Below, piece by piece: positions 9,558 through 58,917 of a DNA stretch of 64,000 bases (its first letter is position 1; every line of letters starts with the position of its first letter). The stretch spans positions 364,082-428,081 of the forward strand of contig NZ_LN898229.1 of NCBI RefSeq assembly GCF_001457835.1, read 5' to 3'. Source of the DNA: Fenollaria timonensis. GTDB lineage: Bacteria > Bacillota > Clostridia > Tissierellales > Peptoniphilaceae. The position numbers were made by a program, and so were the translations under genes. The notes beneath the pieces were generated by a model that saw nothing but the letters and a program-made list of their open reading frames with translations, made no database searches and was not told the DNA's origin.

Positions 9558-9599
9558 TAATAAATTGTTTATTGTATTTTAAGTTTTAATTCATCGCAA

Positions 9600-9853
9600 A
9601 ATCTGTTTATTCACAAATTTTAGCTATCAAGTATTTCGCAGAGCGATTTGATTTATTCGCAAAATAAATTTATTCACAATTTTGCTGGAAAAATTGATGG
9701 ATAAGGCGCAGCATAACGAACGACCGACCGACATCGTACAAATGCGTACGTTGAGGGAGGTAGTGAAGTGCGCGAGCCTTAGGCGCAATTTGAAGAACCC
9801 CGTACTTTCGTACGAGAACCTTTGTGCTTCGCACGAACGCAAAATTCGCGAAA
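9600..9853. repeat. Hairpin-rich intergenic repeat block behind a stop codon
   Basis: No gene is present here. The block starts at the stop of the preceding gene and holds, on the minus strand, GTGC-GAA-GCAC, then GGTTC-[CGTAC GAAA GTACG]-GGTTCTTC (9792-9820), then a CGTACG..TTGTACG hairpin and a GCGCCTTATCCATC string (9702-9716 region). The last string recurs at 58766-58780 and the GGTTC-hairpin-GGTTCTTC unit recurs at 14.4, 14.5, 49.2, 49.3, 58.8 and 58.9 kb. Confidence 0.75.
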
Positions 9854-13857: not shown

Positions 13858-13984
13858 AATATATATATAAAACATCATAAAAACCTAATAAGCCTATATA
13901 GGTTTATTAGTCATGCAAAAATTACATAAATTTGTGTTATTTTAAGTATATAAATTAAAAACGTGCAAATGTTAGTTTTAACAT

Positions 13985-14013
13985 AAAAAGAGAGACTTAA
14001 ATCAATAAGTCTC
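13985..14013 (-). terminator. Inward-reading terminator in the right IS end
   Basis: On the minus strand GAGACTTA pairs with TAAGTCTC across six bases, then CTCTTTTT follows. It is directed from the right end into the element, antisense to the transposase. An isolated copy of this end lies at 59009-59060. Confidence 0.7.
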
Positions 14014-14034
14014 CCCAATATTTGACATAGAGCC

Positions 14035-14158
14035 AAAAAAACTAGCCTTGCTCTGAACCGGAGCAAAACTAAAGTACAAGTATCGGACTTATGCTAATCG
14101 CAAATACCGTAGCGGCACTGTGTAGGACTCTAACCTACTTCCTTGTTATATTCTATCC
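14035..14158 (-). promoter_or_regulatory. Cobalamin-riboswitch-like RNA with terminator
   Basis: Read on the minus strand, ACAAG pairs with CTTGT to close a core containing GGAAGTAGG-TTAGAGT-CCTAC, then ACAGTGCCGCTACGGT and AAGTCCGATAC. These correspond to the conserved cobalamin (B12-box) core: GGGAA..GGTG..AA.TCC.., C.GTCCCGC.ACTGT, and AGTC.G..AC. A ten-pair hairpin (AGTTTTGCTC / GAGCAAGGCT) and seven T follow, so the RNA ends in an intrinsic terminator, as in a B12-repressed switch. The IS right end begins on the next base (14034), cutting the switch off from whatever gene it controlled. Some peripheral stems of the full class are missing, so a short variant is assumed. Confidence 0.72.
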
Positions 14159-14164
14159 AAGATG

Positions 14165-14193
14165 ATTATACTACAGAGATTAAATTTAGTCAA
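14165..14193 (-). promoter_or_regulatory. Promoter of the riboswitch-like RNA
   Basis: TTGACT (14188-14193) and TATAAT (14165-14170) on the minus strand with a 17-base spacer; transcription would start near 14158. Confidence 0.72.
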
Positions 14194-14382
14194 TTGAAAT
14201 ATATTTATATAAACAAAAATAGATACATAGAATATTTATTTTTACAATTGTACATCGAAAATCAATTTTCTCACTAAAAAATGGATACAAAATTAATTGT
14301 ATCCACTAAAATATTTATAAAATAAAATTTTTACCACGTGTCAATTAAAAATTTTAACCGCAACCTTCATTTCGCAGATAAA

Positions 14383-14417
14383 GAAGAACCCCGCCCACGT
14401 GAACGTGGACGTGAACC
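14383..14417 (-). repeat. GGTTC-hairpin-GGTTCTTC repeat, copy B
   Basis: On the minus strand GGTTC, then CGTCCACGT-TC-ACGTGGGCG, then GGTTCTTC. The nine-pair stem includes a T/G pair that is a wobble only in this orientation. It lies in the 500-base gene-free stretch between the riboswitch and hydF. Confidence 0.75.
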
Positions 14418-14514
14418 TTACTGCTACGCATCGTGATGATTGGACGAATTGAATTTTTAATAATGCTATACAAAGTCACTCAAACGCTTAGTTCGCAGAG
14501 AAGTTGAGATGATT

Positions 14515-14545
14515 GAAGAACCTCGCCCATAAATTGCCGAGAACC
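14515..14545 (-). repeat. GGTTC-hairpin-GGTTCTTC repeat, copy C
   Basis: On the minus strand GCGCAAAGGTTC, an imperfect TCG..CGA hairpin (two mismatches), then GGTTCTTC. It is the most decayed copy of the family in this window. Confidence 0.65.
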
Positions 14546-14554
14546 TTTGCGCTA

Positions 14555-14633
14555 TGCGTTGTACAGAATTTTTTGGAGTGAGGTGTGCAAATGGGCACTC
14601 CACAGCGACAAAACAATTCGAAACTAGCAAAAG
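14555..14633. repeat. 79-bp repeat, inverted partner at 58608-58685
   Basis: This stretch matches the reverse complement of 58608-58685 almost throughout (for example GACAAAACAATTCGAAACTA and GTACAGAATTTTTTGGAGTG). Only the centre, between GGAGTG and CACTCC, differs clearly in sequence and length. Confidence 0.85.
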
Positions 14634-14649
14634 GGCTCAACTTAATGCG

Positions 14650-14704
14650 AAATAAGTCGAGTATTGCCGCCAAGGGAACGAGTTCAAGGGCGCGTTTTAG
14701 CGCG
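14650..14704. repeat. Partial copy of the 129-bp repeat, behind hydF
   Basis: TCGAGTATTGC.. and GGAACGAGTTCAAGGGC match 54522-54557, with similarity continuing to GCGAA. It abuts, and just overlaps, the hydF stop codon. Confidence 0.65.
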
Positions 14705-48755: not shown

Positions 48756-49209
48756 CTTTCACATTAAAGGGCTCGTTTCATCGCAAAATCGTTTTCTTCC
48801 CTTGTAAGATTTTTATTAAAGTAGTTTAATTGAGTTATATAATTGCCACGATACTTATTTTAATCAAAATACATATTTTATATCTATTCAATATACATTT
48901 ACGTGAGCAATGGACATCGAAAATTGTTTTCGTCGCTTGCTGGTCTACATAAATTGTTAATTTCTAAGCTTACTCACCTGTGGTCTCATATTCGTTCGCT
49001 ACGCTCAACTAGATGAGACCACGGGCGGTTCGTTGCGCAAAGAAATTAATTCAATTTATTCCGAATGCTGCGCTCGTGAAAATCAATTTTCTCTTTATTA
49101 AGTGGCGTAAGCTTAATATTTAGTTTTAATCGTATTAGTTCAAACATCTTTCCAATTTAGATCAAATTAAATATCTTGTATCGGATGACACAAATCTTGC
49201 GATGAAAAA

Positions 49210-49238
49210 GAAGAACCTCATCCTAACGGACAAGAACC
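49210..49238 (-). repeat. GGTTC-hairpin-GGTTCTTC repeat, copy D
   Basis: On the minus strand AAAGGTTC, then TTGTCC-GTTA-GGATGA, then GGTTCTTC. The six-pair stem needs two G/T wobbles that exist only in this orientation. Confidence 0.75.
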
Positions 49239-49283
49239 TTTACGCTATGATGGATTGTGCAAGGCGCCAGTGCGAAGCACCAA

Positions 49284-49334
49284 GGTTCTCGGGACCCATT
49301 CAAAGCGAAGCTTTGTAAATGGGTGAGGTTCTTC
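49284..49334 (+). repeat. GGTTC-hairpin-GGTTCTTC repeat, copy E
   Basis: On the plus strand CAAGGTTC, a long hairpin (ACCCATT..AAAGC-GAA-GCTTT..AATGGGT), then GGTTCTTC. GTGCGAAGCAC just before it matches the GTGC-GAA-GCAC at 9824-9834. It faces copy D. Confidence 0.75.
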
Positions 49335-52601: not shown

Positions 52602-53412
52602 TATAGAAAAAAAAGAGATTGAGCGCTTCATCATCAAGAGCTACAGAAAGGAACTTTGGAAGAAATTTCTTAAGGCGATAAACGATTTTAATCTGATTGA
52701 GGAGGGTGACAAGGTCTTGGTCGCTATCAGTGGCGGCAAGGACTCGATCCTTCTTGCGAAGATGTTTGAGGAGCTGAAGAAGCACTCGATTTTTAAATTT
52801 GATGTCTGCTATGTGAGCATGGACCCCGGCTTTACTAAGGAGAACAGGGACAAGCTTGAGGAGCTATGCAAATTTTTGGGCATAGACATACAAATATTTG
52901 AGACGGACATATTTCAAGTGGCTGAGAAGCTTGCGGGTGACTACCCATGCTACATGTGTGCTCGTATGCGCCGCGGCGCCCTTTATGGCAAGGCGAAGGA
53001 GCTTGGCTGCAACAAGGTCGCTTTGGGTCATCATATGAATGATGTAGTTGAGACGACGCTTATGAACATGCTCTACGCCGGCACTTTCAAGACGATGCGC
53101 CCGATACTCGATAGCCAAAACTTTGAAGGACTCAAGCTGATTAGGCCTATGTACTACATAAGGGAAGATGACATTAAGAGATGGCTTAAGAGAAGTGATC
53201 TCAAGGCTTTGGACTGCGCCTGCTCTGTTACGAAGAAGAGAAGTGGCAATATACGCTACGAGATCAAGGACCTTGTCGCCGAGCTTATGGAGAAGAATAA
53301 TATGGCGGAGAGAAATATTTTGAATAGTGCGATGAATATTAATTTGGACTCTTGTGTGGCTTGGGAAAAGGATGGGAAGAAGTATCTTCTGGGGGAAGAA
53401 ATTCAAAAGTAA
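52594..53412 (+). CDS. ttcA: TtcA-family tRNA 2-thiolation / PP-loop ATPase
   Basis: A 272-residue PP-loop protein: [18 protein letters not shown] (ATP binding, near residue 44), [13 protein letters not shown] (CxxC, near 118), [17 protein letters not shown], and a third Cys region [13 protein letters not shown]. The Cys set that binds an Fe-S cluster and the SGGKDS loop fit the TtcA/TtuA group that makes 2-thiocytidine or related thio-bases in tRNA. It is coupled to apt by an overlap. The precise tRNA position is not certain. Confidence 0.85.
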
Positions 53413-53413
53413 G

Positions 53414-53542
53414 GTTCGCGTTCAAGCGAGCCCTTGAACTCGTTCCCTCCTCAGCAATGCTCGAGTACTTTTGTACACTCCGCTTGCTTCGTCAGTCCAC
53501 ATCGTCCAATCATCTCGCTTGCTCCGCGAAGTCCCATGGTCG
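53414..53542. repeat. 129-bp inverted repeat, left arm
   Basis: It begins two bases after the ttcA stop and matches the reverse complement of 54444-54572 over its whole length with few differences (shared strings include GCCCTTGAACTCGTTCC and CGTCAGTCCACATCGTCC). It contains a GAGTAC-TTTT-GTAC-like hairpin. The two arms enclose the mazEF pair 53674-54233. Confidence 0.9.
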
Positions 53543-53673
53543 ATGGTAGTGCCAGAGTAATTATAAAAAGATAGTGAAGAAAAAGAAATAGATCTAAATA
53601 ATAAATTAAATAATACACAGAAAAAATGGTCGGATCGCTCCGGCCATTTGCATTTACACTTGCTTTCACTTGT

Positions 53674-54003
53674 TTATATTATTTCAACTTGCGAAAAAAT
53701 TATATTGACAACTTTTTCTAATATATCATCTGGGCATTTCTCAATAAATACATGTTCTCTTGCGTTAAGATCTAGCGACTTAAGATGCTCACAAAGTATC
53801 ACGCCTGTTGTTTCTGTTCTTGAATCAAGTGGAACATGTAAGGGAAAGTCATTGTTTGTATTAGTGATTGGGCATAAAATTGCTAATTTTGCATTTTTAT
53901 TGAAAACGTCATTGCTGACAACTACTGCCGGCCTAAAGCCAGCTTGCTCATATCCCCTTTGGGGGTTAAAGCTTAGATTTACAATATCTCCTTGTCTTAC
54001 CAT
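53674..54003 (-). CDS. mazF: MazF/PemK-type mRNA interferase toxin (module 1)
   Basis: A 109-residue toxin with the family core MVRQGDIVNLSFNPQRGYEQAGFRPAVVVS and LCPITNT, VPLDS, GVILCEHLKSLD. MazF is a sequence-specific ribonuclease that cuts free mRNA. The start overlaps the mazE end by seven bases. It is about three-quarters identical to the second toxin at 55822-56151. Confidence 0.93.
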   Translation of the reverse strand: MVRQGDIVNLSFNPQRGYEQAGFRPAVVVSNDVFNKNAKLAILCPITNTNNDFPLHVPLDSRTETTGVILCEHLKSLDLNAREHVFIEKCPDDILEKVVNIIFSQVEII

Positions 54004-54233
54004 ATTTCCTTACCCTTTGTTTCGCCCCAGTCAATTTCTTCTGGCTTATAGTCTCCATTGTATCCATCAAAAAGCTCTACTATGCTTTTTCTTTTATTGT
54101 GCTTTTTTATGATAATCTTGTCATCATCCTTGCTTATTGAAAGCTCATCGTTTTCGCTCCAACCAAGTTCATCTATTAAAACTTTAGGGAGCCTTATGCC
54201 TTTGCTGTTGCCCCACTTTTGTAAAGTAATCAT
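53997..54233 (-). CDS. mazE: MazE-type antitoxin (module 1)
   Basis: A 78-residue AbrB-fold antitoxin: MITLQKWGNSKGIRLPKVLI (DNA-binding half) and a toxin-binding tail IVELFDGYNGDYKPEEIDWG. The ATG at 54233 has GGAGGTGTATATT upstream; a longer reading runs through the promoter. It is about 80 percent identical to the second antitoxin (15 differences in 78 by direct count). Confidence 0.93.
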   Translation of the reverse strand: MITLQKWGNSKGIRLPKVLIDELGWSENDELSISKDDDKIIIKKHNKRKSIVELFDGYNGDYKPEEIDWGETKGKEIW

Positions 54234-54267
54234 AATATACACCTCCACAATATATATGTATATATAT

Positions 54268-54296
54268 AGTATATACTTTTTATTTTGATTTGTCAA
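54268..54296 (-). promoter_or_regulatory. Promoter of mazEF module 1
   Basis: TTGACA (54291-54296), 17 bases, TATACT (54268-54273) on the minus strand. GTATATAC and following TATATATA repeats overlap the -10 and are a likely MazE operator; the same layout is conserved at 55533-55561. Confidence 0.78.
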
Positions 54297-54443
54297 TATT
54301 TTTACATAAAAAAGGAGCAATTAAGCTCCATATTTAATCTTTTATCATATTCATGAATTTAAATGCAATCACTTTTTATATTTTTTTTTTAGATCTCTTT
54401 TCTTTATTCACAAACACTAATCTTTTTACCCTGGATCCTACTC

Positions 54444-54572
54444 CGACCATGGGACTTCGCAGAGCAAACGAGATGATTGGACGATGTGGACTGACGAAGC
54501 AAGCGGAGTGTACAAATGTACTCGAGCATTGCTGAGGAAGGAACGAGTTCAAGGGCTCGTTTGAATGCGAAC
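54444..54572. repeat. 129-bp inverted repeat, right arm
   Basis: The reverse complement of 53414-53542 and of the same length. Its right end is five bases from the mscS stop codon. A shorter relative lies behind hydF at 14650-14704. Confidence 0.9.
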
Positions 54573-54577
54573 TGTAT

Positions 54578-55411
54578 TTATTCTTTGTTAATAACAAAAG
54601 TTTTATCTAGAACTCTAATCTTATTCCTAGTAAGCTCCTCTAAAGCTACTTCCCTCATTAGCCTTTCAATCCTCCATTGCTCACCCGGTATCGTCTTCGC
54701 CGCAGCACTAATCACCACACCATTGCTATTAAAATCAGTGATGCCCCAGACATTAACCCCTTCAATAACGGCGTGGTCCTCATCAACTTTTTTCAGCGCC
54801 TTCGTCAAGATGTCGATCGCCATTTGCGCGTCGGCATCATAAGCTATAGGCACTGTAATCAGCGCTCTTTGAACGTTTTTGTTCCTGTTAGTCACGACTC
54901 TGATCTCGCCATTAGGAATGACGTGCAGCTCACCCGTATAATCACGGATAGTCGTTGTACGCAGACTGATCTTCTCAACAGTACCAGTCTTGCCCGCTAC
55001 AGTGATGTCGTCGCCAAGCACAAAGCTATCTTCAAGCATCAAAAATATACCGCTGATGATGTCTTCAACAAGGCTCTTCGCTCCAAAGGAGATCGCGATA
55101 CCCCCTATCCCAGCAGTTGTCACGATCGCCGAGGTATTGACACCGAATATCCTTAGCGCCGACAAAAACCATGTGAACATGATAATGATTGTCGCGAAGC
55201 TCTTCAAAACGCTCAGAACCGTCTTAAGCCTCTTCGCGTCGATGGTTCTGAGCTTACTATACTTTTTCTTCGCAAGCCTACCTATGATGAAGCTTATGAT
55301 CTTCACTATAATCAAGGCGATGACGAAGTATAAAAGCACGAGCGCAATCTTGCCCAAAGTGTTCAGCGTGCCCGCCTCAGTCAAAAAACGTAATTTTATT
55401 TTATCAAACAT
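54578..55411 (-). CDS. mscS: Small-conductance mechanosensitive channel
   Basis: A 277-residue MscS channel with three membrane helices (residues 19-40, 63-85, 90-112). The pore helix and its exit read GIGGIAISFGAKSLVEDIISGIF, then the beta domain (FVLGDDITVAGKTGTVEKISLRTT) and an alpha-beta C-terminal cage. It opens under membrane tension to release solutes in hypo-osmotic shock. It lies between two oppositely oriented mazEF modules. Confidence 0.94.
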   Translation of the reverse strand: MFDKIKLRFLTEAGTLNTLGKIALVLLYFVIALIIVKIISFIIGRLAKKKYSKLRTIDAKRLKTVLSVLKSFATIIIMFTWFLSALRIFGVNTSAIVTTAGIGGIAISFGAKSLVEDIISGIFLMLEDSFVLGDDITVAGKTGTVEKISLRTTTIRDYTGELHVIPNGEIRVVTNRNKNVQRALITVPIAYDADAQMAIDILTKALKKVDEDHAVIEGVNVWGITDFNSNGVVISAAAKTIPGEQWRIERLMREVALEELTRNKIRVLDKTFVINKE

Positions 55412-55561: not shown

Positions 55562-55591
55562 ATATATATACATATAAATGGAGGTGTACTT

Positions 55592-55828
55592 ATGATTACT
55601 TTACAAAAGTGGGGTAACAGCCAAGGAATAAGACTTCCAAAGTTCTTACTTAATGAGCTTGGATGGAGTGAAGATGAAGAACTATCTGTAATAAAAGAAG
55701 ATGATAAGCTTATAATAAAAAAACACAATAAAAGAAAGAACATAGTTGAACTTTTTGATGGATATGATGGAGACTACAGACCCGAAGAAATAGATTGGGG
55801 CGAAGCCAAGGGTAAAGAACTATGGTAG
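55592..55828 (+). CDS. mazE: MazE-type antitoxin (module 2)
   Basis: A 78-residue AbrB-fold antitoxin (MITLQKWGNSQGIRLPKFLL, tail IVELFDGYDGDYRPEEIDWG). A GGAGG site precedes the ATG. It is paralogous to 53997-54233; differences cluster at the DNA-binding and toxin-binding surfaces, so cross-neutralisation between modules is uncertain. Confidence 0.93.
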   Translation: MITLQKWGNSQGIRLPKFLLNELGWSEDEELSVIKEDDKLIIKKHNKRKNIVELFDGYDGDYRPEEIDWGEAKGKELW

Positions 55829-56151
55829 AACAAGGCGACATCATAAAACTAAGTTTCAATCCTCAAAAGGGGCACGAGCAAGCCGGATTTAGGCCAGCTC
55901 TAGTTATTAGTAACAATGTTTTTAACAAAAACACAAATTTGGCAATACTATGTCCAATCACTAATACTGATAATAAATTCCCTTTACACGTTGCACTGGA
56001 CACTAGGACTCAAACTACTGGCGTCATTTTATGTGAACACATTAAATCACTAGACCTTAATGCAAGAGAGAATGTTTTTGTCGAAAAATGCCCAAAAGAC
56101 ATCTTAGATCAAGTAATAAATATTGTCTATTCGCAAGTAGAAAGATTATAA
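55822..56151 (+). CDS. mazF: MazF/PemK-type mRNA interferase toxin (module 2)
   Basis: A 109-residue toxin (MVEQGDIIKLSFNPQKGHEQ, LCPITNT, LDTRTQTTGVILCEH). It overlaps mazE by seven bases, as in module 1. About 26 of 109 positions differ from the other toxin, with conserved catalytic-region residues. A strong terminator follows directly. Confidence 0.93.
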   Translation: MVEQGDIIKLSFNPQKGHEQAGFRPALVISNNVFNKNTNLAILCPITNTDNKFPLHVALDTRTQTTGVILCEHIKSLDLNARENVFVEKCPKDILDQVINIVYSQVERL

Positions 56152-56163
56152 ATTATATACGCA

Positions 56164-58588: not shown

Positions 58589-58607
58589 TTTCTTGCCTAA
58601 TTTGCGG

Positions 58608-58685
58608 CTTTTGCTAGTTTCGAATTGTTTTGTCGCTGCGGAGTGCGTTTAGCACACCTCACTCCAAAAAATTCTGTACAACGCA
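58608..58685. repeat. 78-bp repeat, inverted partner at 14555-14633
   Basis: It matches the reverse complement of 14555-14633, 44 kb away. Outer parts are nearly identical; the inner part between GGAGTG and CACTCC differs. It starts 20 bases behind the DUF2207 stop. Confidence 0.85.
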
Positions 58686-58789
58686 AAATCCATCAAATTA
58701 TTACAAGAACTTACGGTTTTGGATAAATTATTTATAAAGATATTATAGGTAATTTACATTCTGCTGCGCCTTATCCATCATAGCGCAAA

Positions 58790-58822
58790 GGTTCTAGTAC
58801 ATTTTAATGTACTAGGTTCTTC
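58790..58822 (+). repeat. GGTTC-hairpin-GGTTCTTC repeat, copy F
   Basis: After ATAGCGCAAA comes GGTTC, then TAGTACATT-TT-AATGTACTA (nine perfect pairs), then GGTTCTTC. Confidence 0.8.
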
Positions 58823-58885
58823 TTCTTCCGGCAAAAGTGTGAATAAATATAGTTTGATCAAGTTCCTTGCTCCGTATAGCGCAAA

Positions 58886-58917
58886 GGTTCACGTCCATTT
58901 ATGGACGGGGGTTCTTC
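58886..58917 (+). repeat. GGTTC-hairpin-GGTTCTTC repeat, copy G
   Basis: After TATAGCGCAAA comes GGTTC, then CGTCCAT-TT-ATGGACG (seven perfect pairs), GG, then GGTTCTTC. It has the same leader as copy F and a different stem. Confidence 0.8.

Follow-up and report, generated by a model that had tools for sequence, protein, structure and literature searches.

Short hairpin repeats of Fenollaria and related Clostridia: a probable miniature insertion element whose long form lies mostly behind transcription terminators

The window analyzed here, the whole 64,000-nt stretch of Fenollaria timonensis contig NZ_LN898229.1 from position 364,082 to 428,081, holds seven intergenic copies of a short folded repeat, six of a compact form and one, at 49284, of a long two-hairpin form. 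All seven copies named in the original prediction were recovered within 1-3 nt of where it had placed them and, as it claimed, they lie outside genes, intergenic meaning here between open reading frames (ORFs) of at least 80 aa. Copy A spans 9792-9834 on the minus strand (58.6 bits with the compact model) and is composed of hairpin I, GTGC-GAA-GCAC, at 9824-9834, the box AAGGTTC at 9816-9822, the stem CGTAC/GTACG, and the box GGTTCTTC at 9792-9799. Three more compact copies lie on the same strand: copy B (14383-14431; 52.8 bits), with a stem of 9-10 bp and a degenerate hairpin I at 14420-14431; copy C (14515-14554; 62.6 bits), with two stem mismatches; and copy D (49210-49247; 60.5 bits). Copies F (58781-58822; 69 bits) and G (58879-58917; 61.6 bits) are compact copies on the plus strand. 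The seven had been taken as alike, which holds for these six but not for the copy described at 49284-49334; this copy E is a long form (49270-49334, plus strand; 84 bits and E = 1.3e-18 with the long-form model), in which hairpin I, GTGCGAAGCAC, at 49270-49280 is followed by AAGGTTC at 49282-49288, a bulged long hairpin II, and GGTTCTTC at 49327-49334. The GCGCAAA noted before the first box is indeed seen, but it is the 3' side of hairpin I, a second and often degenerate hairpin that reads GTGC-GAA-GCAC in the best copies.

The motif GGTTCTTC occurs eight times in the window, compared with 1.61 +/- 1.08 times in shuffled sequence (about 5-fold), and seven of the eight fall within the element. 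Across the 1.74-Mb genome, AGGTTC-N8-35-GGTTCTTC is found at 13 places, one of which (C8:86063) is a simple-sequence match, versus a single place for the reversed pattern. A filter-free search of the window with the compact covariance model, R1, recovered these seven copies, all at E ≤1e-8; its only other match has E = 0.72.

R1 was built from 72 compact copies (69 distinct) of three Fenollaria genomes, which were chosen by their boxes and not by their stem. The boxes, first described as fixed sequences around a hairpin, are constant, but in folding they pair with each other as the base of hairpin II, AAGGTTC/GGTTCTT (A-U, A-U, G-C, G.U, U.U, U.G, C-G). AAGG, the foot in alignments A1 and A3, is present in 85/87 model hits; the constancy of the boxes in these two alignments owes something to the way their copies were selected, namely by box patterns. 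Above this base, the 72 aligned copies hold 59 different stem-loops, and the claim that the stems vary yet stay paired is borne out: double changes occur at 8/8 pairs of the hairpin II stem (8 was reached in 1/500 shuffles), there are 58 double-change cells versus 15.1 in shuffles (0/500 reach 58), and 86.4% of stem cells are paired (0/500 shuffles), compared with 27-45% in slid controls. The covariance model and covariation test once proposed as a check on the fold have thus been applied and passed, with pair counts and shuffles in place of R-scape. Copy C, formerly the unpaired exception, keeps 6/8 pairs when read from its sequence. Contrary to pairing, A.G is found at the outermost pair in 19/69 rows and G.A at pair 33-42 in 18, and hairpin I is weakly paired in the Fenollaria compact copies (58.3% of cells). 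At locus L090 (1084-1121 and 1304-1342), both copies carry an inverted 5' box (GAACC), giving a near-complete palindrome.

Mismatched pairs in the compact stems are G.T rather than A.C at 22:4, or 19:4 over distinct inner sequences (p 0.003, calculated on related copies that are not independent), and in the long-form stems at 40:19 with two constant G.T pairs excluded. This excess indicates that the GGTTC-to-GGTTCTTC strand is the folded strand, as had been argued from the wobble pairs of two copies. The further step to RNA does not follow, since the G.T excess fits RNA and single-stranded DNA alike and strand asymmetry cannot separate them.

Further copies were expected in relatives and are present: at E ≤0.05, R1 matches 23, 46, and 44 places in the three Fenollaria genomes. 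For each genome, 150 candidates were scored; the lowest-scoring matches may be due to chance, and one place, being palindromic, appears once per strand. Matches to R1 are found in 10/130 genomes of the family, including five of a second genus, g20, whose copies turned out to be the long form. Of 24 stretches picked up by a scan of GTDB contigs with the compact pattern, 16 belong to Fenollaria massiliensis and eight are single matches in other organisms; among the latter, one has a paired stem (L109) and another a partly paired one (L116), and the rest look unpaired. The L109 copy, at 1538-1567 in a Clostridiales MAG, reads AAGGTTC-TTGTGCGAAGCACAA-GGTTCTTC with a perfectly paired stem. In 58 non-Fenollaria relatives, the compact pattern gave mostly simple-sequence or unpaired matches as judged by eye.

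The Fenollaria compact copies occupy intergenic repeat modules and are not placed behind hairpins (11/72 versus 676/2862 nearby positions). An element-free counterpart, meaning both flanks at 16/20 or better on each side without the element, was found for 20/78 copies (10 of the 78 are long), compared with 8/300 mismatched flank pairs searched in the same way. These 20 counterparts represent 17 distinct places, several copies sharing one, and in 14/20 best alignments exactly one nucleotide replaces the element. For copy F, the counterpart lies within the window at 9674-9714 on the minus strand, where similar flanks (36/40 positions) are joined with 1 nt; both flanks of copy C are also found at F. 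massiliensis locus L082. According to a simple ORF caller, 52/65 Fenollaria copies share the strand of their upstream ORF and 42/65 that of their downstream ORF, the 65 being copies with an ORF on both sides (seven more overlapped an ORF call of at least 80 aa); among hand-picked clusters of these copies, 34/45 agree in strand with the upstream ORF (p 0.0008 versus 50%). Between the EF-G gene and ctsR (identified by Pfam in G000 and by the same sequence in G002) lies an array of both forms; in this spacer (L085, 1-2301; L104, 690-1200), about 100 bp of other sequence interrupt one hairpin II, the arms of which could still pair. Window regions 9577-9780, 13957-14700, 48764-49120, 53407-54580, and 58600-58780 are intergenic mosaics of larger palindromic modules. 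Several of the larger Fenollaria modules have TTTTGC...GCAAAA ends, and some of their inner hairpins seem, by eye, variable yet paired. The window also contains a 563-nt inverted repeat (53673-54235 and 55590-56152; 77% complementary) with ORFs in its arms.

The long form is a unit of about 66 nt that comprises hairpin I (TTGY-GAA-RCAA), CAAGGTTC, a bulged hairpin II, and GGTTCTTAT; in places, these units form tandem arrays in which each follows the last in the same orientation, at a 66-nt period. Its model, R2, is based on 33 of 49 pattern matches (alignment A3), the 16 matches without the long hairpin having been removed by eye. Double changes occur at 11/24 pairs (3/500 shuffles) and 95.4% of cells are paired (0/500). 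At the base, two G.T pairs are kept in 79/79 and 74/79 distinct rows (the exceptions are four T-A and one A-G), and A3 shows no variation in the T.T that separates them. Such constancy bears on the proposal that stems stay paired without selection, as quasi-palindrome arms corrected by template switching during replication after ordinary repeat spread. The palindromic derivatives at L090 and a shortened, compact hairpin inside a g20 long-form array (L142) look like products of that process, and the latter suggests that shortening can arise anew. However, template switching predicts G.T and A.C intermediates in equal numbers, at odds with the excess of G.T in the compact stems, and it does not account for base mismatches that are kept, so we regard it as an unlikely explanation. 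The base of hairpin II also recalls integrons, whose attC sites fold as a paired box, an unpaired spacer, a paired box, and a variable tip. Hairpin II follows a similar plan (AAG/CTT paired, GTT/GTT mismatched, C/G paired, variable tip), but its boxes are direct and not inverted repeats and the long-form arrays that we read, with their 66-nt period, have no space for cassette ORFs, making folded recombination sites of an integron-like system extremely improbable.

R2 extends the host range to 26/249 genomes of the order in 8/92 genera (copy counts are lower bounds, with 19 candidates scored per genome), and to 5/398 genomes of a sample of the phylum, own genome included. A left-end pattern with at most one mismatch matches 45, 10, 37, 36, 31, and 1 times in G129, G130, G131, G132, G133, and G021, respectively, versus 5, 5, 3, 3, 4, and 4 times for the reversed control. 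Among the sites read, one 68-nt sequence was seen three times in G131, four times in G133, and a single time in each of G129 and G132; such unchanged copies at unrelated sites show that copying has been recent. In 20 further regions, picked mainly around left ends without a model listing, 27 pattern rows correspond to 26 element-length copies (the right end was located by script in 12 and judged by eye as mutated in the other 14) and one unrelated match; behind the left ends of these regions there is no cargo that would indicate an autonomous version. Neither the compact nor the long pattern matched anything in IMG/VR, and the phage collection gave no matches. The plasmid collection gave two places in a single record, Acetoanaerobium noterae DSL2 (2.63 Mb), and a second long-form query of that collection found nothing. 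The long form in this record (L189, 3000-3072) thus lies on a sequence deposited as a plasmid, the size of which suggests a chromosome.

Outside Fenollaria, 56/73 long copies lie directly behind an intrinsic terminator, that is, a hairpin followed by a T-tract, compared with 76/3611 random positions (2.1%) and 380/4380 T-rich positions (8.7%) of the same loci. The 73 rows omit 14 of the 87 model matches because these follow another copy, and the 87 do not include the copy that opens each of the arrays L150, L165, and L243; without five rows that possibly follow a diverged copy, the count is 55/68. Downstream flanks of the same copies have a terminator in only 2 and 3 of 73. An earlier criterion, which discarded stems that include the T-tract and was therefore replaced, had given 36/74 versus 16.2% of random and 45.7% of TTTT-ended controls. 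The flanks of eight long-form sites were searched in sister genomes, and for five of them an orthologous site without the element was found, with boundaries uncertain by a few nucleotides due to diverged flanks; the right flank of L152 aligns poorly, the T-run of L153 is shorter in the empty site, and the site L162 is filled in G129. As regards the insertion next to a fixed tetra- or pentanucleotide, without duplication, that marks PATE and IS200/IS605 derivatives, TTAT stands at the right end of 78/87 long copies and TTATTG at the left of 60/87, yet TTAT is found in only 1/6 distinct empty sites. One copy common to two genomes (L273/L283) is decayed in both.

The original prediction had left open whether the repeat is a structured RNA or a mobile element with a replaceable center, and these placements favor a mobile element. 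If the copies were structured RNAs with a function in 3' untranslated regions, carried around by mobile flanks and maintained because selection acts on the RNA, this would explain the RNA-type covariation in compact and long forms, the G.U bias on one strand, the sense orientation behind genes, and a 3' end that resembles a hairpin plus U-rich tract. However, the long form lies mostly 3' of terminators and so would be mostly untranscribed except by read-through, it is missing at orthologous sites of sister species, its presence is patchy (26 of the 249 genomes), and Rfam 15 contains no match to it (window at gathering score; loci L141, L143, L149, and L085 at E up to 5). RNA function at each individual site is not supported, being disfavored by the terminator placement and by the shared copy that has decayed in both genomes, and we consider the 3'-untranslated RNA as a whole rather unlikely.

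The reading that we favor is that the copies probably constitute a very small, non-autonomous insertion element similar to REP or PATE elements, recognized by its folded strand and not by the letters of its stem. It is favored because of the empty sites, the tandem arrays, the identical copies at unrelated sites, and the uniform length of the long form. Starting from what sequence comparison can establish, namely the fold and its covariation, element-free sites, recent copying, stacking of the long form, and placement of most long copies behind terminator T-tracts, the element may work as follows. On the GGTTC-to-GGTTCTTC strand, a short hairpin I is followed by hairpin II with its constant base, and the moving machinery would recognize this folded strand and not the sequence of the stem. 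A hairpin followed by a T-tract is the likely insertion target, and since the element ends in its own hairpin and TTCTTATT, it may offer the next target and thereby stack. Mutations in hairpin II would survive mainly if paired, so that stems diverge and boxes stay fixed. Fenollaria appears to carry a shortened subfamily that would have spread into intergenic repeats instead of terminators.

Without terminal inverted repeats and coding sequence, the element must move in trans. Its mover is most likely a single-strand transposase (HUH/Y1, IS200-type) acting in trans and often lost, although this is the weakest step of the proposal. Such a transposase is favored because IS200 left ends of the same family also lie behind terminators: 5/5 left ends (three genomes, three genera) recognized in the seven loci inspected do so directly (L066 at about 8140, minus strand; L080 at about 140; L130 at about 1330; L131 at about 1334; and L160 at about 2010, minus strand). 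The Y1 transposase (PF01797) is present in all three Fenollaria genomes, and the three of its loci there that retain an intact left end are IS200-like. However, it was found in only 1/5 long-form g20 genomes, a set without G130, although three of the four lacking it (G131-G133) have 31-37 left-end matches, versus 3-4 for the reversed control. IS200 itself was rejected as the parent of the element since its end hairpins (CCCCCAGTTAGACTGGGGG and CCCCCGGCTAGGCCGGGGG, plus another in L160) are unlike both hairpin I and hairpin II.

Group IIC introns insert behind intrinsic terminators. An RNA-level insertion system of this kind would share with the element both the target, a hairpin and then a T-tract, and the orientation. 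However, the element has no intron RNA, its 66 nt leave no space for intron domains, and no reverse transcriptase (PF00078) was found in any of the six element-bearing g20 genomes searched, so a group II intron derivative was rejected and such a system is very unlikely to move the element. Returning to the insertion element, we propose only tentatively, as a somewhat doubtful extension, that it is a new 66-nt mobile element that reads the hairpin-and-T-tract shape of transcription terminators, bears that shape at its own end and so is stackable, and needs neither a host Y1 transposase nor a host reverse transcriptase, with the Fenollaria stem freed of most sequence constraint and evolving as pure secondary structure.

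In the way it would work, the element is like REP and PATE elements, but it departs from each in at least one defining feature. REP/REPIN elements (TnpA-REP, RAYT, Y1 HUH) are, as described in PMC8266576, short, intergenic, strand-specific hairpins with a mismatched or bulged stem and a 5'-foot tetranucleotide, all of which recall the element; that foot is GTAG, however, whereas the foot of the element is AAGG. Moreover, the element differs in having two hairpins, a stem free in sequence over a fixed base, a long form mostly behind terminators, and a Y1 gene in just one of five g20 hosts; thus, it has neither a GTAG-type foot nor a cognate Y1 transposase. PATE and IS200/IS605 elements, as presented in PMC7290912, likewise lack terminal inverted repeats and have hairpins near their ends, and the local IS200 elements share the location behind terminators. 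In contrast, the hairpins of the element are unrelated to the local IS200 ends, its ends match no resident IS200/IS605 end, and the stretch from the left boundary to hairpin I contains nothing that fits as a guide sequence. BOX, RUP, and SPRITE of the pneumococcus resemble the element as small, folded, intergenic repeats that are thought to be non-autonomous, SPRITE being terminator-like, but BOX and RUP have terminal inverted repeats according to the same source (PMC3049150), which the element, whose long form lies behind the terminators of other genes, does not. A classical MITE was rejected on the same ground, as the ends TTATTGYG... and ...GGTTCTTAT, read from A3, are not inverted repeats.

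Miniature non-autonomous hairpin elements as such are already known; what is new here is the terminator placement and the sequence-free stem, and our literature searches found no description of the element. The finding adds to Clostridia a miniature hairpin family not represented in Rfam 15, and the sharp placement behind terminators is directly testable. A mover other than a Y1 transposase would imply a new route of mobilization. With dozens of copies per genome, the family offers a natural experiment on which parts of a mobile hairpin need conservation and which need only pairing.
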